Assembly (NCBI RefSeq): GCF_016745425.1
Contig: NZ_JAERVK010000015.1
Coordinates: 71,447-135,446 of the forward strand
DNA: 64,000 nt
Source of the DNA: Candidatus Methylomicrobium oryzae
GTDB taxonomy: Bacteria > Pseudomonadota > Gammaproteobacteria > Methylococcales > Methylomonadaceae
Reading direction: 5' to 3'
Numbering within the stretch: position 1 is the stretch's first letter; the number at the start of each line of letters is the position of its first letter. A program made the translations under genes and the position numbers. Under the pieces are notes generated by a model, which saw only the letters and a list, made by a program, of their open reading frames with translations, did no database searches and was not told the DNA's origin. Shown here piece by piece: positions 4,275-35,320 of the stretch.

Positions 4275-4317
4275 CGGGCTTATCTTATTGAGCTAGATGG
4301 GAATATGTCGGCCGAAA

Positions 4318-4833
4318 TCATTCGGCTTCAGCCGTTACAGGCATCCCCGACCAAAAAAGGTAAATGAGTTTGTCCCGGCCAATGATCTGTACCAGTTCTC
4401 TTAGCAAGCAATAGAGGAAGAACAATACCGCAAGCCACATCTGGATGATCCAGAAATGAGGCCAGACGATTTTCTCCAGCAGATGTCGATGGGCTTCGAG
4501 GATATCCCCGCCCTCTCGCAGTAAAGGAAACACATGCTCGGCATAACGCACAACAAATGTCGCAAGAAAATAGATGCCGCTTTTCCAGGCAATGCCACAA
4601 AGTAAAGGCTTACCGGCGAATTTATTCATCAATGACAGTTTATCGACGACCAGGACCACCTTCCCGACAATCAGCGCTCCCATCACCGCGACACCTAGCC
4701 CGGTCAGTGGAATCCCATATTCCCGTTCGATCAAATTCCGCGTGGTGGCAAGCAGAAGAAAAGAAATGAAAAAAAAGATCGTTGGAGGCAGGACCAGCAG
4801 GAACTCGTGTTTTATTTTATTAATTAGCTTCAT
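4318..4833 (-). CDS. Uncharacterised inner-membrane protein, four predicted TM segments
   Basis: A 171-residue hydrophobic protein with membrane segments at about residues 15-30, 45-62, 82-98 and 125-145. I do not recognise the family. The start is well supported by an AAGGATGG ribosome site before the ATG. It is transcribed in the same direction as the octahaem cytochrome and ends about 40 bases before that gene begins, so the two may be cotranscribed. No catalytic motif is visible. Confidence 0.65.
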   Translation of the reverse strand: MKLINKIKHEFLLVLPPTIFFFISFLLLATTRNLIEREYGIPLTGLGVAVMGALIVGKVVLVVDKLSLMNKFAGKPLLCGIAWKSGIYFLATFVVRYAEHVFPLLREGGDILEAHRHLLEKIVWPHFWIIQMWLAVLFFLYCLLRELVQIIGRDKLIYLFWSGMPVTAEAE

Positions 4834-5335
4834 TTAAGCCATCCTTATCGATTTATTGCCGTATTTGAATTCAGACAATCACACCCGGTCTCTTCAGCCC
4901 GGCATTCACTTACTGAAACCGAGCACAGGCAATCGCCACTATAAGCCGTCAGAAAACGGAGTCGCAGTGATCGAACCGAAAACATGGATTCTTCCTTCAT
5001 ACGTTGTTTGCTTACGGATCATTTTTCTGCTGAAACCGCGACGGACCATTCTATTGCGAGCCAGCCGGTACGGCTATTGGACTTTAGCCCAAGTTTTATC
5101 GGTGCCGGCGGATTGGCGAGGCTTCATTGCGCTGCCAACGTAATTCGCTCGCAGCTCGGAGCGGAGCTCCGCCATCAGGAATCTGAATTTTTATAAAGAA
5201 GCGTTATATTCCGGCTTTTCAAGCCTGCTTTGCCTGTTTCGGCACGCCGTGTTGAGCCGATGCATTGATGATTTACAATATTAACCCGGCAGTCGGGGCA
5301 GTTTTGCAGACTCGAAGGATGGCCACTAAAACCGA
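4834..5335. other. Intergenic region without a supported gene
   Basis: About 500 bases with no open frame that shows protein character. It contains one copy of the dispersed TTGGACTTTAG motif (5076-5093), about 240 bases upstream of the membrane-protein gene at 4318-4833. Confidence 0.5.
5076..5093. repeat. Dispersed motif, copy 2 (ATTGGACTTTAGCCCAAG)
   Basis: This 18-base site differs by one base from the two identical copies at 11014-11031 and 60905-60922. The ends TTGG and CCAA form a short inverted repeat in the intact copies. Confidence 0.45.
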
Positions 5336-22346: not shown

Positions 22347-24081
22347 TCGATCCCCGCGTGCGCGGGGGGAAGACGAACATGCGCTTGATGCGCTCGTTGC
22401 GCTGGTGTCGATCCCCGCGTGCGCGGGGGGAAGACTCCTACACAAGTCAATTCAAAGTCCAGTGTCAAAAACACCCCCACGGGCGTGGGGAAGACCCAGT
22501 TAATTCGATTCAGACCATTTCCGAACCGGAAACACCCCCACGGGCGTGGGGAAGACTTGGCATGAGCGAGTCGACATTGCGCGCGAAGAGAAACACCCCC
22601 ACGGGCGTGGGGAAGACCCAAACATGCTCTCGTTTCCTTCCACTAAACTAGAAACACCCCCACGGGCGTGGGGAAGACTGTCCCAAAACTCCGCACGCCA
22701 ACTATAACCCAGAAACACCCCCACGGGCGTGGGGAAGACGAACCACAGAATTTCCCCGGCGCGTTTTTGTAAGAAACACCCCCACGGGCGTGGGGAAGAC
22801 CGCTTGCGCCGTGGTTTGCGACATCGTGAAGCGGAAACACCCCCACGGGCGTGGGGAAGACGTTGTAGGTAAACTCGCGTATTGCGTTCATGGGGAAACA
22901 CCCCCACGGGCGTGGGGAAGACCGAACAGCACGGTAAAACCTACACCGTAGAATAGAAACACCCCCACGGGCGTGGGGAAGACTGCGTCCTGGGTGAAGC
23001 AAACCGCAAAAACCCGGAAACACCCCCACGGGCGTGGGGAAGACTAAACCTAGCCGAATGGCTAGACGATCAACGGGGAAACACCCCCACGGGCGTGGGG
23101 AAGACCAGGGGAAAGTCGGCGGCATACCCAAGATGTCGGAAACACCCCCACGGGCGTGGGGAAGACCCGCGCGATGCCCTCCAGAATATCACTGGAAGAG
23201 AAACACCCCCACGGGCGTGGGGAAGACCAGATCGCTTGCCGGCTACTGCAACGGCCTTCGGAAACACCCCCACGGGCGTGGGGAAGACCCGCACGAACCG
23301 GCGTGAAGACGGCTATCCGCAGAAACACCCCCACGGGCGTGGGGAAGACTGCAGCGTGGTGCGGGCCAGCCACAACGGATAAGAAACACCCCCACGGGCG
23401 TGGGGAAGACCCAGCCAGGTTACCGTCAGCGACTGCCGCTTGAGAAACACCCCCACGGGCGTGGGGAAGACCCAGACGCTTTTCTTGTATATCGCCACGT
23501 ACCAGAAACACCCCCACGGGCGTGGGGAAGACTACGACGCGCTGCGGGCCTCCTATACCAGTGCTGAAACACCCCCACGGGCGTGGGGAAGACACGTCGG
23601 CAAACTCAAGAACGCTGTATATTGAAGAAACACCCCCACGGGCGTGGGGAAGACCGTACAGCAATGCCACGCCGGCGAACTACTATGGAAACACCCCCAC
23701 GGGCGTGGGGAAGACATCGATCACACTGAGGACTGGATAGAATTTAGAGAAACACCCCCACGGGCGTGGGGAAGACATCGATCACACTGAGGACTGGATA
23801 GAATTTAGAGAAACACCCCCACGGGCGTGGGGAAGACTTTGGGTGAAATGGATTTGACGTATGATTCTAAGAAACACCCCCACGGGCGTGGGGAAGACTC
23901 CCGGATCTGCACCTCGATCTTATCCGGCATAGAAACACCCCCACGGGCGTGGGGAAGACGGCCGGCGGGTAACGGGTAAACAGCAATATGCGGAAACACC
24001 CCCACGGGCGTGGGGAAGACTAAATAGGCGTTTTTTTCTTTGAGTTCATCCTGGAAACACCCCCACGGGCGTGGGGAAGAC
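22347..24081 (-). CRISPR. Type I-E CRISPR array, 29 repeats and 28 spacers
   Basis: 28-base repeats alternate with 33-base spacers at a 61-base period (the spacer after the second repeat is 32 bases). On the plus strand the consensus begins GAAACACCCCCACGGG and ends CGTGGGGAAGAC; the crRNA strand is the minus strand, where it begins GTCTTCCCCACG and ends GTGTTTC, as in type I-E. Twenty-six repeats are identical to the consensus and the third from the left differs at its first base. The two leftmost, leader-distal repeats (22347-22374 and 22408-22435) have a different stem, TCGATCCCCGCGTGCGCGGG plus GGGAAGAC. Spacers 23716-23748 and 23777-23809 are identical. The array lies directly downstream of cas2 and reads in the same direction. 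Confidence 0.97.
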
Positions 24082-25360: not shown

Positions 25361-26083
25361 CTATTCGGCGTTAATCACGGTTACCCGTCGATCTCGGTAT
25401 TGTTTATGCTCGCCGAACTGGACCGGCACATCCATTAAGGTGAGCGCTTCGCCCGAGTGTTCGCCACAGAGTACACGAAAGTCTTCCAACAGAGATTTTT
25501 CGCTGGCAATGTTCAGGGCTTGAGCCATGGCTTCGCCCTGGGTCGGATATTGGCCACGGTAGATAAAATCGGTGGGGACGCAATTCTTCCTGCCCAGATA
25601 TACGTCCCAAGCCGGATTTTGTAAGGCTTCGGCAATGGCATTAGCCCGGGTGGCAGGAACCTCCAGCGCCACCGCAAAATAAGCATCCTGCAGATAGTAG
25701 CGGTAGGTCATTTTAGTACCACCACCTACCGCTTTTTTGCCTTCGTTGGTTTTCGGGATTAATAAACTTTCCCAAGGGTTTTGGTCGTCGTAACCGCTGC
25801 CAACCATGTGAAAATCGCGTAATAACGGTTGCCGATCAGTTTTGATGATCTTATCGTTACCCGTAGTGCGCGTGGATACGAAAGCCAGCACGGTTTGATC
25901 CAACGGTGCAAACTCCGCCAACAGTTCTTGCTGCTCGCCGCCGGCTCCCAATGCGCTACAGATCAAACCCAATACACCGGATTTGGTTGGAAAATTCAGG
26001 GTATCGCGGCGGCCGAATTTGGAATCGTGCCCCCAGGATTGTAGCGGCGCTTCCAGCCATAACAGCAGATAAGGGTTACTCAT
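25361..26083 (-). CDS. cas5: Cascade subunit Cas5 (type I-E, CasD)
   Basis: From the ATG at 26083 (MSNPYLLLWLEAPLQSWGHD) the protein has 240 residues; an earlier ATG at 26101 has no ribosome site, whereas AAGGATGCGGGA precedes 26083. The SWGHDSKFGRRDTLNFPTKS region is typical of Cas5e. Cas5 caps the crRNA 5' handle in Cascade. The start overlaps the end of cas7 by eight bases, which indicates coupled translation. Confidence 0.95.
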   Translation of the reverse strand: MSNPYLLLWLEAPLQSWGHDSKFGRRDTLNFPTKSGVLGLICSALGAGGEQQELLAEFAPLDQTVLAFVSTRTTGNDKIIKTDRQPLLRDFHMVGSGYDDQNPWESLLIPKTNEGKKAVGGGTKMTYRYYLQDAYFAVALEVPATRANAIAEALQNPAWDVYLGRKNCVPTDFIYRGQYPTQGEAMAQALNIASEKSLLEDFRVLCGEHSGEALTLMDVPVQFGEHKQYRDRRVTVINAE

Positions 26084-27227
26084 TCCCGCATCCTTCGGCA
26101 TGTTGTTTGAGCGCCGCCACTAAATCGTCGATGCTGAAATTGGTATCTTCACCCCAGGTATAGTCGGCAATTTTGCCAAACAACGAGCCGAACAGTTTTT
26201 CTTTGTTGGCCAGGTAGTCGGATAATGCGGTAATGCTAGGTTGTAAGAACCCGCCATCTTTGGCTTTTACAGCTGTTTCAAAGGGAACTTGCAGGCGCTG
26301 GCCTTTTCTGATTAGGATTTTGGCGTATTCCCAAGGTGATGCGCCGGATTGCGTGGTTTGCCGGGCAGCGGGTATCGCGACAAACAAGGCCTTGGTAAAG
26401 GCTTCGACGGCTTCCGGCAGGCTTTGTCCGGCGAGGGTTTGGCAAAGTTGCCCCAAGTCCAGGCTGACATAGCGGTAATAGGTGGCTGAATTGAATTCAA
26501 GGCTGCCCATGTGCGCGGCACCGGGATCTTCTTGCAGGTCGTCCAATGCGGTAAAGAACTCGACTTCGTTGCTGATCTTGTGGGTGGAAATGGCGTGGGA
26601 AAACGAGGCGGCGGCTTCAATATTCAGTTCCGCCGCCTGGGCGACCATGCGACCAAATAAGGCAATATCCAGTGCATCAACTGCCTCAGATACTTCACCG
26701 ATCAAAGCGGCCATTTCTTTAGCTTGTTTTTTTGCATCCTTTTGAAGGATGACTAGGTCTGGATCAAAACCTTTTTCAGCAAATGCTTCGGCAAGTATGC
26801 CGACTTCTTTAGGACTTAAAAATAACAGCGTATCGGTTTTTTCTTGACCGGAATCTATTGGCGCTTCTTCCAATGCCTCATTGTCTTTAGCTTTTTTGGG
26901 TTTCTTCTCTTCTTTTTTCTTGATAAAAATCTGCTCGATTTTGTCGCCACATGCCTTGGCTTGATCGTCATTTGCACCTTTTTCAAGACAGGCTTTGGCA
27001 ATCATGTCAGATATGAGCTTGGTTCTGGAGCCGTGAGTGATGCCTAATTCATGCATGGCTAAACGTACTTGCCTTTTCCAGCATTGTGAACTGACTCTCG
27101 CCCGCGTACTGCCACCTACCGTTGCTACTTTAGGTGCGCCGACATCATCTCTGTTTAAACAAGTTACAGGAAAAGATTGCAGAATATGAAATTCGATATG
27201 AGTAGATTTAAAAGGGTTATTATTCAT
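26076..27227 (-). CDS. cas7: Cascade backbone subunit Cas7 (type I-E, CasC)
   Basis: A 383-residue Cas7e. The N-terminus (HIEFHILQSFPVTCLNRDDV, then GAPKVATVGGSTRARVSSQC) is the RNA-binding strand and loop of the family. A Lys/Glu-rich insertion lies at about residues 95-125. Six copies normally line the crRNA in Cascade. The ATG follows AGGATAAC. It does not follow cse2 directly: cas6e and a degenerate mini-CRISPR lie upstream. Its codons 25-35 (27121-27153) are matched by the spacer of that mini-CRISPR. Confidence 0.95.
   Translation of the reverse strand: MNNNPFKSTHIEFHILQSFPVTCLNRDDVGAPKVATVGGSTRARVSSQCWKRQVRLAMHELGITHGSRTKLISDMIAKACLEKGANDDQAKACGDKIEQIFIKKKEEKKPKKAKDNEALEEAPIDSGQEKTDTLLFLSPKEVGILAEAFAEKGFDPDLVILQKDAKKQAKEMAALIGEVSEAVDALDIALFGRMVAQAAELNIEAAASFSHAISTHKISNEVEFFTALDDLQEDPGAAHMGSLEFNSATYYRYVSLDLGQLCQTLAGQSLPEAVEAFTKALFVAIPAARQTTQSGASPWEYAKILIRKGQRLQVPFETAVKAKDGGFLQPSITALSDYLANKEKLFGSLFGKIADYTWGEDTNFSIDDLVAALKQHAEGCGNE
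27121..27153 (-). promoter_or_regulatory. Protospacer-like site in cas7 matched by mini-array 1
   Basis: Read on the minus strand, 22 of 33 bases match the spacer at 27277-27309, in register and without gaps, with AAA (27156-27154) in the PAM position. Both sequences translate alike in the same frame: NRDDVGAPKVA in cas7 and RDDVGAPKTA in the spacer. Most differences fall at third codon positions. Confidence 0.6.
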
Positions 27228-27248: not shown

Positions 27249-27338
27249 TATACACCCCCACTGAAGTGGGGAAAATATTGCCGTTTTCGGCGCACCGACG
27301 TCATCCCGAGAAACACCCCTACTCATGTAGGGAAAGAC
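27249..27338 (-). CRISPR. Mini-array 1: two degenerate repeats and one spacer, between cas6e and cas7
   Basis: Two degenerate copies of the array repeat (27249-27276 and 27310-27338) flank one 33-base spacer. Both keep the ACACCCC start and the Cas6e hairpin but change the loop (TGAA and TCAT instead of GGGC). The second has a C-G pair replaced by T-A on both arms (CCCTAC with GTAGGG). Orientation is the same as the main array, so transcription of the cas operon would produce a crRNA-like guide whose 5' end is TCGGGATGACGTCGG. It lies 22 bases upstream of the cas7 start codon. Confidence 0.85.
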
Positions 27339-27374
27339 GCCCATGTAATTTAAATATCCATGACATTGTCTTTT

Positions 27375-27995
27375 TTAGATCGCCACGATTTGTAGCAAAC
27401 CAAAACCAAAGGCGCGGCCCCGGCCTATGCCTTGGCGAAAGCTTTGGTTGAAGTGTTCTCTGTCAATCACTTGCAATTCGCCTTTCAAGGTAGCGCTGCC
27501 GTGGGTGACGATTTGGTTGTCTTTTTTGAAGGTTTGCACGGCCATTTTTTCGATTTGCAGATTGATGGGATTAACCTTGAAACCCCAGGATGTTTCGGCG
27601 CGTTCGATAAACCAGTGAGTAATGGCCTCGCGGCCACGCACGGCAACGATTTTGCCGGTTTGTTTGTCGCGTCTGCCGGGATTGATGACCACTTCAAAGG
27701 CATAGCGCGAGTGTTGTAAGAAGGCTGCACTGATGGTTTTGCACTCAACTTCGCCATGGTCCGGCGCGAGGTTGGGTGGACGATTGGCCAACATCAAGAT
27801 TCGGCGGCTATTAAAGTCACCGCCTTTATCGGCATACAAAATGCCGCTGGGCAAACTGGCCTGTTTTTGCTGGTCGCTTCGGACATCGTCAAACAAATCA
27901 TAAACTACCCGATGCAATGAATAGGGATCGGTTATTTTCAGGGTTTTGACATCGTTCCTGGATAAGCGCAAGACGGCGGCGTACAGATTGGTCAT
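27375..27995 (-). CDS. cas6e: CRISPR RNA endonuclease Cas6e (CasE)
   Basis: A 206-residue Cas6e. It starts MTNLYAAVLRLSRNDVKTLK, has the catalytic-histidine region DPYSLHRVVYDLF and ends with the glycine-rich loop FRQGIGRGRAFGFGLLQI. The enzyme cuts each repeat hairpin to release crRNAs and stays bound to the 3' handle. GAGGTGGC precedes the ATG, which overlaps the end of cse2. In the usual I-E order cas6e follows cas5; here it lies before cas7. Confidence 0.95.
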   Translation of the reverse strand: MTNLYAAVLRLSRNDVKTLKITDPYSLHRVVYDLFDDVRSDQQKQASLPSGILYADKGGDFNSRRILMLANRPPNLAPDHGEVECKTISAAFLQHSRYAFEVVINPGRRDKQTGKIVAVRGREAITHWFIERAETSWGFKVNPINLQIEKMAVQTFKKDNQIVTHGSATLKGELQVIDREHFNQSFRQGIGRGRAFGFGLLQIVAI

Positions 27996-28513
27996 GCCAC
28001 CTCCTCGGTGTTGCTGCGCTGGTAAAAATCTTGCGCCCAGCGACTTTTGACGCGTTGCGGGTTACTATGGAAATACAGCAAATCGCTGAGCAATTGGTCA
28101 TAGTTCAAATTCAGTCCCGCTTTAGCCTCAATCAGACTGAATAATGGCCTGAGTATCCGGCAGACTTCGTCGACGGCTTCACAGGCTAGCAAGCGCCGGA
28201 GTTTGGCTTTGGCTTGATCATTGGCATTGCCGTCCTCGTAGCACAAGGCAATGGCGCGACCAATACCAATGTTGCCATTGTGTTCAGCCTTCGATTTGGC
28301 GATGGCCGCAGCGATGGTGGCATACGGTAGGCGCTCAAACTCTTTTTCCAGATCAATGTGGAACGCAGCCAGATGCTCCCAGCACTGGTATTCAGTATTA
28401 GGGTTGTCGGCCCGTTTCAATTTGGCGGCGATACCTCTGTCTTTTTGGCATTGCTCAATGGTGTATGTCACAAAAGCTTCTGATCTACTCGGTTTTTTTG
28501 CGTCATCGCTCAT
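27992..28513 (-). CDS. cse2: Cascade small subunit Cse2 (CasB)
   Basis: With the start at 28513 (MSDDAKKPSRSEAFVTYTIE), preceded by AAGAGG, the protein has 173 residues, the usual Cse2 size. The helical body contains LKRADNPNTEYQCWEHLAAF and a C-terminal DLLYFHSNPQRVKSRWAQDF. Cse2 dimers stabilise the displaced DNA strand in Cascade. Start and stop codons overlap those of cse1 and cas6e by four bases each, which indicates tight coupling. A longer frame to 28615 lies inside cse1 and is not used. Confidence 0.93.
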   Translation of the reverse strand: MSDDAKKPSRSEAFVTYTIEQCQKDRGIAAKLKRADNPNTEYQCWEHLAAFHIDLEKEFERLPYATIAAAIAKSKAEHNGNIGIGRAIALCYEDGNANDQAKAKLRRLLACEAVDEVCRILRPLFSLIEAKAGLNLNYDQLLSDLLYFHSNPQRVKSRWAQDFYQRSNTEEVA

Positions 28514-30018
28514 ACTGGAACCTCTTCTTTTTTGGTTTGGTCTTTCAGATATTTGCCTAGATTGGGCCGGTTTTTTGCCCAAGCGTCGAGTTGTCGGGCC
28601 GTGTCTCTGGGGCAAAAATGATCGTAGGCTTGATTGGCGAATCCGGCGAAGTGTTTGCGAAGTGCTTTGGCTTGCTCAGTGTCTTCACATACATTAACCA
28701 GGTCTTGAAATCTACGCTCGCACAGCTGCCAGAATAGGTTACTGGCTATTACCGCTTGCGCTTTACCTTCACTATTTTGAGTTTTGAAAAAATTCAAAGT
28801 GGCGCTATAGACGACTTTGGAGAGCTGCTCGAGTTCGGCCATTTCCAGTTTTAGGTTGGCGAACCACGTTTCACCCAACATCGTTTGCGGCAGCATAATG
28901 ACTGATTCTACGTAGTCATCGGTGCCTGAAACGTATTGCTCGCCGGCATTGCTGCTGACGCGTAACCCGCCAGACCAGATTCCCAGCGCGTTGACTTCTG
29001 CTCTAGCGCGGAGCAGGCCCAAGCGCAAGTGATAGCAATCAAACCCTTGTGTGCCGGTTTGAGTCACAAACCCTAATAATGCCGTCAAAAATCGCCAGGG
29101 TCTTTTTTCAGGATCGACCCAAATGGCTTTGGGATCTTTACCGGAAAAGTCTACCGAGACGCTGGGATCGACCATGTTGTCTTTGTAACCCAGATGGGCA
29201 ATGCCTTCGGAATAATGCAGCCCGTTTTCGACCAATAAACAAAAACGCGATAGCGGCAGCAATCGCCCCATCAAACTGTTTTGCAAAGCTTTGGCGATAT
29301 CGCAGGCTTCGCCGGCCGGCATTTTTTCCCACGGCGGAACACCCAGCCCACTGCTGTAAATCGGTAGTTGTTGCAAATGCTCACGAGTTAACAGGTTTAG
29401 CCAGAGGGTTTCAATAATCGATTGCCCCACGAGAAAACTGTGCAGAAAGCCCATAAAACCAATGGCCGCTCCTGGCTTACCGGTACTGGCTTTGCCTTTA
29501 TCGTTGCTTTTGCCCTTGTAGCCCGATGAGAGCACGATACTGTTATCGGTTTTTTTGCCGCCTAAACTAAAGCCCATCAACGTTAACAGCAATAGCGCTT
29601 TGTCGGCTTCCGATAACTGTTTTTCGATATGGCTCTGAGTTAATACTGTGGTATTGCCGGTGGCAATTTCGGCTAATACTGCGCCGAAGCTCTGAATATC
29701 AGCGGCCTGAATAGCCGGCATTTGCAAAAACGGCTGGTTACCATAAAGCCAAAAACGCTCATGCCATTGATCCAAATATGCCAAACTTTTTTTTGCCATG
29801 CCATCCGCGCCCAATGCCGCCCAGTCGTCATCGTCTTCAGGTGTGCAAGCAGCTTGAGCAATGGCCAACAGCAATTTAGTCAAGGCAATTTTCTGTACGG
29901 GATTGCCGCCTAAAGCGCGGTAGCCGCTATGGCTAAATAGCGCTTTCAAGCTGACTAGCCCAACATCTACAATGGGTATCCAGGGTTCGTCGATCAGGTT
30001 AAAACGTGCCTCAATCAT
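28510..30018 (-). CDS. cse1: Cascade large subunit Cse1 (CasA)
   Basis: A 502-residue Cse1 that begins MIEARFNLIDEPWIPIVDVG, the family hallmark. It recognises the PAM and recruits Cas3. The C-terminal four-helix bundle is present (LRKHFAGFANQAYDHFCPRD). I use the ATG at 30018; a TTG one codon earlier is possible. No strong ribosome site is seen. The upstream gap to cas3 is unusually long (329 bases) and holds a predicted promoter and mini-array 2. Confidence 0.95.
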   Translation of the reverse strand: MIEARFNLIDEPWIPIVDVGLVSLKALFSHSGYRALGGNPVQKIALTKLLLAIAQAACTPEDDDDWAALGADGMAKKSLAYLDQWHERFWLYGNQPFLQMPAIQAADIQSFGAVLAEIATGNTTVLTQSHIEKQLSEADKALLLLTLMGFSLGGKKTDNSIVLSSGYKGKSNDKGKASTGKPGAAIGFMGFLHSFLVGQSIIETLWLNLLTREHLQQLPIYSSGLGVPPWEKMPAGEACDIAKALQNSLMGRLLPLSRFCLLVENGLHYSEGIAHLGYKDNMVDPSVSVDFSGKDPKAIWVDPEKRPWRFLTALLGFVTQTGTQGFDCYHLRLGLLRARAEVNALGIWSGGLRVSSNAGEQYVSGTDDYVESVIMLPQTMLGETWFANLKLEMAELEQLSKVVYSATLNFFKTQNSEGKAQAVIASNLFWQLCERRFQDLVNVCEDTEQAKALRKHFAGFANQAYDHFCPRDTARQLDAWAKNRPNLGKYLKDQTKKEEVPV

Positions 30019-30100: not shown

Positions 30101-30190
30101 GAAACACCCCCACTAATGTGGGGAAAAACTTGCAAAAATTACTAAACAACCAAGTCTATCGGAAACACCTCCACATCAAGTGGAGAAAAT
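30101..30190 (-). CRISPR. Mini-array 2: two degenerate repeats and one spacer, between cas3 and cse1
   Basis: Two degenerate repeats (30101-30129 and 30162 to about 30190) flank a 32-base spacer, the same 61-base period as the main array. Both begin GAAACACC, keep the hairpin and change the loop (TAAT and ATCAA). The second has a compensated pair (CCTCCAC with GTGGAG). Read on the minus strand, the spacer starts CGATAGACTTGGTTGTTTAG; its first 12 bases match exactly, and 15 of its first 16 match, a site at 30315-30346 in the same intergenic region. Confidence 0.9.
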
Positions 30191-30313
30191 TTTGTCTTTC
30201 CAATTTCGACGCAAGGCAAAGCTGGATTTCACGCTGCGCCCGGCTGTTGGGATTTTAGGATTCGCTTTTCCGTAAGCGATTTAATGGCTTTGCTAAGTCG
30301 GAAGGACGGAATT

Positions 30314-30343
30314 ATTATAGATAAATTTTTACATCCAAGTCTA
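30314..30343 (-). promoter_or_regulatory. Predicted sigma-70 promoter for cse1 and mini-array 2
   Basis: On the minus strand TAGACT (30343-30338) and a perfect TATAAT (30319-30314) are separated by 18 bases. Transcription would begin near 30307, run through mini-array 2 and then into cse1. The whole promoter lies inside the site matched by the mini-array 2 spacer. Confidence 0.6.
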
Positions 30344-30346
30344 TCG
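30315..30346 (-). promoter_or_regulatory. Protospacer-like site matched by mini-array 2
   Basis: The minus strand reads CGATAGACTTGG followed by ATGTAAAAATTTATC. The first 12 bases equal the spacer seed; 21 of 32 match overall. AAA (30349-30347) occupies the PAM position, as at the cas7 site. The site begins one base after the cas3 stop codon and covers the -35 and -10 boxes. Confidence 0.75.
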
Positions 30347-30347
30347 T

Positions 30348-32903
30348 TTATTTTTTTATTGAAAGATAACCTAATTGTTGATCGTATTGAATCGTGTACT
30401 CTTCTGAGGCATCACCGCCATCCAAGCTAACGACGGTATCGCTATCCAAAACCCTGGCCACTCGCAATCGGAATCGGCTTTCGCCCTCATGTTTGCCCAG
30501 GTATATGTAGTCTTGCAGCCAGTCCAGACTTTTTAAATCCATGGCTTTAGGCGCCAAATAATCGGCAACTCGCACGGTATTCCGCAGCAGTTTGGCCGCC
30601 AACTCCCGGCGTTGCCATGGCGACAGGCCTTTACCCTTCTCTGGCAGCAGCGCGGTGGTATCGTCTAGGAAACGCACAAAACATCCGCCTTGCTGGGTAT
30701 CGAGGCGATAATTTTTGATCAGCAACACTTCTACGCTGTCTTGCGCGCTATAGCGGGTGCTGGCTTTTTCTTCGGGCAGGGTTTTGCCTGCTTTGGATAA
30801 TCCAAAGAGAGCCTGATTTCGCATCTCTTCTTTCTTCTTTTCAAGGGCGTTTAAATGGCTCAACATCGCGCCACCTTCGCCCCTGTCCATATAAGTCGCT
30901 TCAATGATTTCCCTGATTTGTCCGGGTACGGCAACCGTTCGCCGGTCTTGCCAGACTTCCAAGCTACGGCACAAGACATAAGGACTATAGATCTTAGCGG
31001 TTTGGCCAAACGCCTGTTCAGGGTTGTCAATAGCGCTGGCCAATTCCGGAACTAATAACCAGGTTTCGCATAGCGCTCCGGCAATTCGAACCGTTCCGCT
31101 GTGTCGCCATAAGCGGCCCATGCGCTGTAACAACATATCGCTGGGCGCAAAGCGGCTGATTAGAAAATCGGCATCAATATCCAGCGATTGCTCCAGAACC
31201 TGTGTCCCCACCAGAATGCGCCCACACTGCTGACGTTGTGGGCCGCCGTCTTTACCATACAGTCTGGTCCAATGCTCTTCGTTTTTTTCGCGATCCATTT
31301 TGAGAAAACGTGAATGCAATAAACCGCATTCAATTTTGGGTTCGCAGTCGCGGGCAGATAATGCTTGATAGATTCGCTGGGCTTCGGCCACGGTATTTTC
31401 TACCCATAACACCTGTTGACTTAATTCCGCGCGGCGCAAGGCTTCTTCAATCGCTTCGTCTTCATCATAGCAATGCTGAATGGCAATCGTGCAATCGGCA
31501 ATCTTGAGTACCGGTTGTTCGATCAAACAACCATTTTTCGGTAACGCCGAAATCAACGGGTAAGCCTCATTGGATGAGGCCGTGCCTAATAAAGCACTAC
31601 GGCGCTGTTGGGTCAGGGTTGCGCTGAGAATAATCACCGTACAATGCAATTCGCGCAATACCTTAACAAGTTCATCGAGCAAGGTGCCGGTGTAACTATC
31701 ATAGGAATGGACTTCGTCCAGTATCACCACTTTACCGGCCAGACCAAAGGTGCGCACAAAGCCATGCTTAACATTCATGACCGCCATAAGCGCTTGGTCG
31801 ATGGTACCGACGGCAAACGGCGCGAGAATGCCGCGCTTCGAGGCCTGAAACCAGGAACCACCCGGATTACCTTCTTTGCCCAATTCGGTTTTGAGCCAAG
31901 CATTGCCATGTAATAACAAGGGTTGTTGATGCGGACCTTCACCGACTAGGATGCGCTGCAAAAATTGACCCACACGTTCGTGAATTTTGTCGGAGGTCAG
32001 TTGCGTCGGTAGCGCAAAATACAAACCGGATGCTTGATGGGTTACAAGCAATTGGTAGGCGGCATACAGCGCCGCTTCGGTTTTGCCCAGCCCCATCGGC
32101 GCTTCCAATACATATACACCCGGTTGCTTGACTTGCTCAATAAAGTACTGTTGGGTATCACGAGGTTGCCAAGAAAAAATATCGGTAAAACGTAAGTCGG
32201 GTTTTAATATTGGTCGTACAAAACCAGCTTCATCAATGGCTTGTTCTATCTTTGGTTGCCAGTTTTCCGCTGGATCATTAAACAATGACCCAGAACCAAT
32301 CCAGTCGGAAACACTGGTAAATCCTGCCAGAATTCTGGCTTGGAGTTCATTCTGTACGGTTGGGAAATCGGTCTGTAGCGCGCTTTTTAAATCGGTGAGT
32401 AATTCTTCACGCCGTTGTTGCCATACGCTACCACCAAACACTTCATCGGTTGCCAAGTTGGCAACATTTGGTGAATAACCATGATGCTGGCCGAGAATTT
32501 CAGGGATGAATTTGCCAACTTTTAAGTATTTTGCCGTAGCCTGGCTGACGCCAGCATGACCACCCCATTGGTGTTCTATTTCTGGGTTAAAGCTTATTAA
32601 TTCAGGGGGTAAGTTATCTTTATAGGCATCAGTACCCTTATAAATTTTGGCCTGAAATGTTGGGCTGACTTTGCCGATATCGTGCGCTGCCGCAATCAGC
32701 TCTACCCCATTGGGAAATAATTCTGCAACCAGCCAATCCGGTAGCCGTGCGAGTAGTCCACGGGCTACTTCGCCAACAATATGGCAGTGGTTTAGTACCT
32801 GGCGCCCTGCTTTTTTCTCGCCGGTATTCGCTACATAGGTTTTGGCAAGGCATCGGGTTAAAGGAAGCGGTGGGCTAGCTTTAGTGGTTTCTTTACGGAA
32901 CAT
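30348..32903 (-). CDS. cas3: Cas3 nuclease-helicase
   Basis: An 851-residue fused HD nuclease and superfamily-2 helicase. HD motifs: the histidines near residue 40 (LNHCHIVGEV), His74-Asp75 in AAAHDIGKVS, EHQWGGHAG and LGQHHGYSP. Helicase motifs: LEAPMGLGKTEAALYAAYQL (Walker A), ILDEVHSYDSY (DEVH box), LSATLT, and the late arginine motif in LLQRMGRLWRH. Cas3 is recruited by Cascade at a full match and degrades the target strand. GAGG lies before the ATG at 32903. It is the first cas gene. Confidence 0.96.
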   Translation of the reverse strand: MFRKETTKASPPLPLTRCLAKTYVANTGEKKAGRQVLNHCHIVGEVARGLLARLPDWLVAELFPNGVELIAAAHDIGKVSPTFQAKIYKGTDAYKDNLPPELISFNPEIEHQWGGHAGVSQATAKYLKVGKFIPEILGQHHGYSPNVANLATDEVFGGSVWQQRREELLTDLKSALQTDFPTVQNELQARILAGFTSVSDWIGSGSLFNDPAENWQPKIEQAIDEAGFVRPILKPDLRFTDIFSWQPRDTQQYFIEQVKQPGVYVLEAPMGLGKTEAALYAAYQLLVTHQASGLYFALPTQLTSDKIHERVGQFLQRILVGEGPHQQPLLLHGNAWLKTELGKEGNPGGSWFQASKRGILAPFAVGTIDQALMAVMNVKHGFVRTFGLAGKVVILDEVHSYDSYTGTLLDELVKVLRELHCTVIILSATLTQQRRSALLGTASSNEAYPLISALPKNGCLIEQPVLKIADCTIAIQHCYDEDEAIEEALRRAELSQQVLWVENTVAEAQRIYQALSARDCEPKIECGLLHSRFLKMDREKNEEHWTRLYGKDGGPQRQQCGRILVGTQVLEQSLDIDADFLISRFAPSDMLLQRMGRLWRHSGTVRIAGALCETWLLVPELASAIDNPEQAFGQTAKIYSPYVLCRSLEVWQDRRTVAVPGQIREIIEATYMDRGEGGAMLSHLNALEKKKEEMRNQALFGLSKAGKTLPEEKASTRYSAQDSVEVLLIKNYRLDTQQGGCFVRFLDDTTALLPEKGKGLSPWQRRELAAKLLRNTVRVADYLAPKAMDLKSLDWLQDYIYLGKHEGESRFRLRVARVLDSDTVVSLDGGDASEEYTIQYDQQLGYLSIKK

Positions 32904-34848: not shown

Positions 34849-35080
34849 GGTTTCCGTTTATCTTCCTGCTTTTTGGGCAGCTTTACAACAAATCTGTGAC
34901 GTTAGGCAGGTTCACTTAACGGCCTATCATCCTAAAACGGGGTGATAAACTGATCCGGATCTCATGGCATGCAGTTGGGCCCATCCGAACAATGCAAGTT
35001 TGACGGGGACTATTGTGAGTCCGCTTATTGACAGCGAGCAGGCATTCAAGGAATAGCGCTTGAAAGACCGATAAGGGTCC
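34849..35080. repeat. Dispersed ~230-bp repeat, copy A
   Basis: This stretch aligns with 46986-47213 over its whole length. Shared blocks include GTTTATCTTCCTGCTTTTT, CTTTACAACAAATC, GCCTATCATCC and AATAGCGC/AATAAGCGC near the right end. Copy A ends exactly where the 168-base TIR element begins. In the minus strand both copies give a similar short frame around ACHEIRISL/ACHNIRIYL, so the repeat may come from an old coding sequence. Confidence 0.65.
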
Positions 35081-35248
35081 AGGCTGTGTAAAAATGTGGA
35101 AAATGAAGGCAGAAATTGAAAATTTCTCGATTTGGTTCATCCTTCAGCCCATTTAAACCACCTTGATCTCCACTAAGATTTGGCACTAATTGGCAAACTG
35201 ATTACAAAATTCCACCTCTATCCGGAATTTCACGTTTTTACACAGCCT
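35081..35248. mobile_element. 168-bp MITE-like element
   Basis: Terminal inverted repeats of about 20 bases bound the element: AGGCTGTGTAAAAATGTGGA at the left and the reverse of AGGCTGTGTAAAAACGTGAA at the right, with two differences. There is no coding capacity inside. No clear target duplication is seen. A similar TTTTACACAGG end lies at 35317-35330, next to the stop codon of the neighbouring cassette gene, so a related element may have been there too. Confidence 0.6.
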
Positions 35249-35320
35249 GAGTCGAGCCCTGCCTGTCTGCCTTATTCAGTCAAGGCTAATTTCTGAATCC
35301 TGCTGATCAAATCCAGAGTT

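Follow-up and report, generated by a model that had tools for sequence, protein, structure and literature searches.

The window, a 64,000-nt stretch of Candidatus Methylomicrobium oryzae DNA, carries a complete type I-E CRISPR system on the minus strand, in the order cas3, cse1, cse2, cas6e, cas7, cas5, cas1, cas2 and array. Profile matches above cut-off identified cas3 (30348..32903; TIGR01587 and TIGR01596), cas6e (27375..27995; TIGR01907), the predicted processing enzyme, and cas7 (26076..27227; TIGR01869). The first Cascade gene, cse1 (cas8e, 28510..30018), is the predicted regulated gene and matched TIGR02547 with 232 bits against a cut-off of 70. The main CRISPR array (22466..24081, minus strand) contains 26 exact repeats and served as the reference for the repeat and for the PAM-derived base. 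Two copies of a different repeat-like unit, TCGATCCCCGCGTGCGCGGGGGGAAGAC, lie at the far end of this array (22347-22435). Elsewhere in the window, a pair of 22-nt inverted repeats, 91% complementary and 126 nt apart (35080-35249), is possibly a miniature transposable element.

The gap between cas3 and cse1 is 326 bp long and holds a degenerate mini-array of two repeats around one spacer, at 30189-30101 on the minus strand. The first repeat (30162..30189) shares 20 of 28 bases with the array repeat and retains the stem CTCCAC/GTGGAG and the handle GGTGTTTC, while the second (30101..30129) shares 23 of 28. Their hairpins have predicted energies of -10.1 and -11.7 kcal/mol, respectively, compared with -11.7 kcal/mol for the main-array repeat. 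Both the hairpin and the terminal 8 bases that would form the 5' handle are preserved in sequence and predicted fold, confirming the first-pass annotation, which had described two hairpin-retaining degenerate repeats around one spacer in this gap. The element lies beside the cas genes and outside the main array, and as a repeat pair around one spacer it has the form by which CreR elements are recognized.

In E. coli, the last base of the repeat derives from the PAM. A pyrimidine, T or C, follows 25 of the 26 main-array repeats in the window and all 13 repeats in the array of a relative, G095. Because of this pyrimidine after 25 of 26 array repeats, the C at 30161, the first base of the mini-array spacer (30130..30161, minus strand), was taken as PAM-derived. 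Guide position 1 is therefore G30160, the guide begins with GATAGACTTGG, the matching self-target site starts at G30345, and the PAM of that site is AAC (30346..30348, minus strand), overlapping the cas3 stop codon. The first-pass annotation had assigned an AAA PAM and a register one base earlier. Both were dropped, since they disagree with the pyrimidine in 25 of 26 window repeats and since the mismatches at the other loci described below fall solely on positions 6 and 12 only when the register is shifted.

The recurrence itself was found exactly where it had been reported: the 12 bases CGATAGACTTGG recur at 30346-30335. In the corrected register, guide positions 1-11 and 13-15 match the site at 30345-30331, giving 14 of 15 with position 12 as the sole mismatch, so that the seed match stood while its earlier count of 15 of 16 did not. 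Beyond position 15, position-wise agreement within the window is at chance level, as had also been claimed. The 32-nt footprint of the site (30314..30345, minus strand) lies 185 bp upstream of the guide, over a sigma-70-like predicted promoter. When both strands of ~850 bp were scanned, mismatches being permitted at any position, the self-target site had 1 mismatch in 14 and the runner-up 5 in 14. In the 4.7-Mb genome, the AAY PAM plus guide pattern occurs once without mismatch, at the promoter site, and once with one mismatch. The recurrence is thus real, and stronger than first stated. A coincidence, or a direct repeat bound by an ordinary repressor protein, might be suspected from the degeneracy of the repeats and from the frequent binding of proteins to direct repeats in promoters; with only 3.3 × 10−6 AAY-PAM sites matching at all 12 positions expected by base composition in the ~850 bp, we regard this explanation as exceedingly improbable, and the comparison of loci below weighs further against it.

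The predicted promoter, TAGACT-N18-TATAAT (30314..30343, minus strand), reads towards the mini-array and cse1 and was recognized by consensus match, agreeing at 10 of 12 bases. Its predicted -10 box marks the end of the 32-nt footprint. The motif previously called a near-ideal promoter is therefore present, but the scan returned 3 promoter-like sites against an average of 1.1 in shuffled sequences, and the promoter itself is accordingly a prediction.

To compare related systems, Cse1 was searched in 201 genomes of the host family, yielding 23 loci in 22 genomes. Repeat elements precede cse1 in seven of these loci, which were picked by their repeats and not by their matches; five are assessable, the contig of G091 ending before any promoter and that of G095 inside the element. 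One further genome, G076, has a single repeat remnant before cse1 and falls outside the mini-array count. For G142 and G036, repeat identities refer to array repeats borrowed from kin. All five assessable loci have a single clear self-site upstream of cse1 on the same strand, with a PAM of AAC (four loci) or AAT (one locus) and 1-2 mismatches in 14, against at least 4 for the runner-up. The guides themselves differ, beginning with GATAGACTTGG, CTAGGTTTAGT or TAATAACTTGA, and with ATGAGATTTAG in two congeners. Across the five loci, positions 1-14 other than 6 and 12 match in 60 of 60 cases and positions 6 and 12 in 3 of 10, and complementarity at positions 15-32 is only partial (30 of 90).

The same design was found in a distant type I-E locus, G615, which has an E. 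coli-like repeat and a mini-array that is antisense to cse1, its spacer comprising 20 bases. All 51 copies of the repeat in its array have G as the final base, and the PAM of its site is AAG; the sole mismatch in the first 14 positions is at position 6, and the runner-up site has 5. With G615 included, the match is 72 of 72 at positions 1-14 minus 6 and 12, and 4 of 12 at positions 6 and 12, and in all six loci the PAM suits the array of the lineage. All 8 mismatches within positions 1-14 fall at 6 or 12 (p ~5 × 10−8, with the loci taken as independent; p = 3.5 × 10−7 for the five host-family loci and 2.5 × 10−6 without the congener G080). G142 and G080 are congeners with similar guides, and the six cases amount to about five independent ones. 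The comparison with related genomes that had been proposed as a check thus came out in agreement, each of the five assessable loci and G615 matching the region upstream of its own cse1. An operator bound by a protein would have no such gaps at positions 6 and 12, and the rule argues against coincidence by recurring in six loci whose letters differ and whose PAMs suit their lineages. The pairing pattern, constant at positions 1-5, 7-11 and 13-14 and seemingly free at 6 and 12, points to use of the guides in the cell.

G615 came from a wider scan of 57 further Pseudomonadota Cse1 loci (29 from the class and 28 from the phylum) among the matches listed, and it is the only one of these 57 in which the element was found. 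Of the 57 loci, 17 yielded one or more pairs at the 12 scored positions, and G615 alone was kept on the basis of repeats, PAM and place. The other 16, assessed visually on no more than six rows apiece, showed palindromes, array repeats, coding repeats and chance pairs, some with a hairpin ahead. An AAY row at L024, in a comparison from which rows lacking AAY were dropped, is a tandem duplication within cse1 and was taken as chance. The scan takes the flank edge as the start of cse1, an assumption that does not hold for some of the partial matches (e.g., L177, L190 and L198), and by treating positions 6 and 12 as free it is blind to other mismatch patterns; the five host-family loci are without such bias. 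The pattern CTCCA-N4-8-TGGAGGTGTTTC occurs in 8 places in 7 of 311 genomes of the host order. It occurs in at least 118 stretches of genome contigs, where the mini-arrays among the matches listed carry only spacers of loci already found, and in 66 stretches of viral contigs.

The hairpins could instead do no more than let Cas6e cleave the cse1 message within its 5' leader and so tune its stability, the spacer having no guide function. They retain the Cas6e-type form, and another mini-array lies between cas6e and cas7; however, this explanation leaves the seed match, the register, the PAM and the free positions 6 and 12 in six of six loci unaccounted for, and the G615 mini-array is antisense to cse1. 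We consider it very unlikely.

A somewhat less remote alternative, though still an unlikely one, is a CreTA module, in which the guide would be an antitoxin repressing a small toxin RNA or peptide from the same promoter, with cse1 merely downstream. In CreTA, the target of the guide is the promoter of its own operon, and the CreT toxins are small and poorly conserved (PMC8501985 and PMC9458426). The operon look is shared, with a promoter, a ~115-nt leader, two degenerate repeats and then the cas8 gene, and small ORFs are present in the leaders, e.g., one of 18 aa in the window and a hydrophobic one of 41 aa in G080. The CreA guide of CreTA likewise has two degenerate repeats and pairs at positions 1-5 and 7-11, leaving 6 and 12 free (PMC8501985). 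Unlike in CreTA, no toxin was found between target and cse1, and the target here precedes a Cascade gene. A small ORF common to the five host-family loci was searched for and none was found, and the G142 site abuts the cse1 start, leaving no space for a toxin. CreR is therefore favoured over CreTA, an unconserved RNA toxin being the improbable form in which the latter survives.

We thus favour, with a probability of roughly 0.84, a mini-array that encodes a CreR-type guide with which Cascade, sitting on the likely cse1 promoter, would repress its own operon without cutting. We infer transcription, processing, loading, promoter activity and repression as follows. The mini-array transcript would be cut out by Cas6e to give a processed RNA beginning with GGUGUUUC and the guide, which would be loaded into Cascade. 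The AAC PAM and seed pairing would hold Cascade on the likely cse1 promoter, where it would block RNA polymerase and so repress its own operon. Cutting by Cas3 would be absent, with only ~15 PAM-proximal bases matching. In E. coli, binding can be achieved with a PAM and only 5 seed bases, while interference requires at least 18-25 bp (PMC5904413), and repression without cutting is expected on this ground. Every sixth base of the crRNA is flipped out of the Cascade duplex (PMC5904413 and PMC11127173), and one type I-B CreA that was put to the test withstood changes at positions 6 and 12 but not at the ten remaining positions up to 12 (PMC8501985). CreR repression is eased by abundant crRNAs or by anti-CRISPRs (review PMC12737573); by analogy, repression here should ease when crRNAs abound or when Cascade is tied up by an anti-CRISPR.

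In the predicted fold of the free guide RNA (30160-30120, minus strand), the seed AGACUUG pairs with CAAGUUU at the 3' end of the same molecule. This fold-back of the guide alone counts against the CreR-type reading, and it might slow or tune loading. The first-pass proposal that Cascade with a seed-only guide represses the cse1 promoter nevertheless stands as the best reading, being consistent with five of five host-family loci and G615. As judged by sequence, the window element is a CreR-type autorepressor with unusually clear comparative support, and the combination of a seed rule free at positions 6 and 12 with a lineage-fitting PAM is, on these alignments, a CreR signature.

The layout of site and guide varies. 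In the window, G071 and G036, the site is upstream of the mini-array and the guide is downstream of the targeted promoter, and could thus be made from the promoter it blocks, as had been proposed for the window. G142 and G080 have the site between the mini-array and cse1, with no strong promoter evident there. With G615 antisense, the guide follows the targeted promoter in only three of six loci, and the self-made loop is therefore not the common feature; what the loci share is a site before cse1.

On a Cse1 tree of 22 host-family loci, two of them with long branches, the element is scattered, well-supported branches forcing at least 4 changes, and its clustering is no greater than that of shuffled labels. 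It is present in only 5 of the 23 host-family loci (7 with the two cut-off cases) and 1 of 57 others, and is therefore dispensable. In G032, the sister and closest relative of the window, the cas3-cse1 gap is 23 bp and lacks the element. Given this scatter and the short gap, promoter and mini-array appear to be gained and lost together, as a cassette, at the cas3-cse1 junction. Since the junction of the closest relative is just 23 bp, the cassette probably also uncouples Cascade expression from cas3.

A second mini-array in the window lies between cas6e and cas7 (27252..27339, minus strand), with repeats at 27339-27310 and 27277-27252 around a spacer at 27309-27278. Its guide, here called guide 2, reads RDDVGAPKTA, a piece of Cas7. 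It matches the cas7 genes of relatives at up to 26 of 32 bases, and all 6 differences from the cas7 of G176 fall at third codon positions. The match to the resident cas7 is 22 of 32, with seed mismatches at positions 1, 3 and 9. The resident stretch is closer to the sister's cas7 (25 of 32) than to guide 2 (22 of 32), a modest hint that guide 2 may have had a foreign donor.

Among host-family mini-arrays between or before cas genes, all seven non-promoter spacers are cas-derived, each from the gene adjoining the element: cas7, cas1, cas5 (four times) and cse1. They comprise one spacer each from the window, G095, G142, G080, G091 and G139, together with the second one of G071. The count excludes the beginnings of canonical arrays close to the end of a contig (G091, G076 and G139) and becomes 7 of 9 if a borderline two-spacer array of G176, located after cas5 without adjacent cas1-cas2, is included. 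The best identities of the seven are 26-28 of 32-33, while none of 241 array spacers reached 25 of 33 against host-family cas loci, the top score of 24 occurring once (Fisher p ~1 × 10−13 for the count of 7 of 7). For six of the seven, an AAY PAM is present in one or more of the homologues listed. The exception, G139, was scored against more loci than the others; its homologous PAM is CAT, and its spacer contains a stop codon. Together with the even differences of G095, the lack of AAY at the own site of G091 and the missing exact donor allele, all described below, these points weigh against our reading of the cas-derived guides. Third-position bias is clear in the window and G071 (6/6 each), weaker in G080 and G091 (4/5 each) and absent for the G095 spacer compared with the cas1 of G145, where the differences are distributed 2, 2, 2.

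In G142 and G071, the cas-derived guide agrees with the gene of its own operon throughout seed positions 1-10, next to an AAY PAM, and may act there as a second repressor. Those of the window, G095, G080 and G091 fall short of such an own-gene match in seed or PAM, the site in G091 itself lacking AAY. The relatives' single-spacer mini-arrays beside cas genes, with spacers from cas1, cas5 or cse1, lie at L162, L287/L337, L295/L338, L297, L329 and L339; the two that match their own gene in this way are L337 and L339.

The exact donor allele of the cas-derived spacers was not found. For relatives of Cas7 as donors, none was confirmed in viral contigs, and 3 phage and 212 plasmid records were all below 60% identity. 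One viral contig with AAY and 16 guide 2 bases diverges immediately afterwards, is not cas7, and was taken as chance. Within its own genome, the guide 2 seed has 1 exact and 14 one-mismatch targets, compared with 8 for a reversed-pattern control (~twofold); the exact place was rejected, lying in coding sequence with an agreement of just 15 of 32. As side observations, G114 carries three copies (L379, L380 and L381) identical over more than 3.2 kb, each with an 82-aa ORF resembling the Cas7e N-terminus, and a Vibrio campbellii plasmid (L348, ~4290-5320) carries I-E genes with no cas3 annotated in that stretch, where the hairpins before cse1 look repeat-like and degenerate by eye.

A tentative interpretation, which we hold to be possible though doubtful, is that the cas operon would police itself with two sets of guides. 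The CreR guide would dose Cascade, and the guides in mini-arrays beside single cas genes, as fragments of foreign alleles of the adjoining gene, would cut incoming homologous operons or gene conversion tracts while sparing the resident allele, which differs in the seed.

CreR elements, cas-regulating RNAs, were reportedly described by Liu et al. in 2023, and standalone mini-arrays with partial matches to cas8 promoters are said to have been described by Shmakov et al. in the same year; the window element similarly adjoins cas8, with a spacer that partly matches a predicted cas promoter. A CreR guide is crRNA-like, has degenerate repeats and is partly complementary to the promoter of its own cas operon (reviews PMC12737573 and PMC13131331), and CreR is reported for types I-B, I-E and V-A (PMC13131331). 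The window element agrees in its guide from degenerate repeats beside the cas genes and its partial complementarity to its own predicted cas promoter. It differs in belonging to a new lineage, methanotroph I-E systems, with several independent members known from sequence, and in that the guide is not downstream of the targeted promoter in three of six loci. Orphan arrays of E. coli are known to carry anti-cas spacers, in genomes without the targeted cas genes (PMC2886076; Almendros 2016, as cited in PMC8616872). Guide 2 and the six others likewise match cas genes of the cognate subtype, but are single guides within an intact operon, beside their own diverged homologue. In the literature searched, with subscription journals mostly outside it, no description of cas-derived guides inside intact operons was found.

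CreR is a kind of system already known, and the window element adds a lineage and comparative support. The loci form a natural comparative test of Cascade pairing, in which positions 1-5, 7-11 and 13-14 are identical and 6 and 12 look free with different letters each time. Self-tuning of CRISPR expression would thereby extend to the type I-E systems of methanotrophs, and regulators of this sort could be recognized by a simple test on sequence. The cas-derived guides are the more surprising lead, for they raise the question of whether a CRISPR operon defends itself against replacement by related operons; if true, this would be a CRISPR operon that excludes replacement by its relatives.
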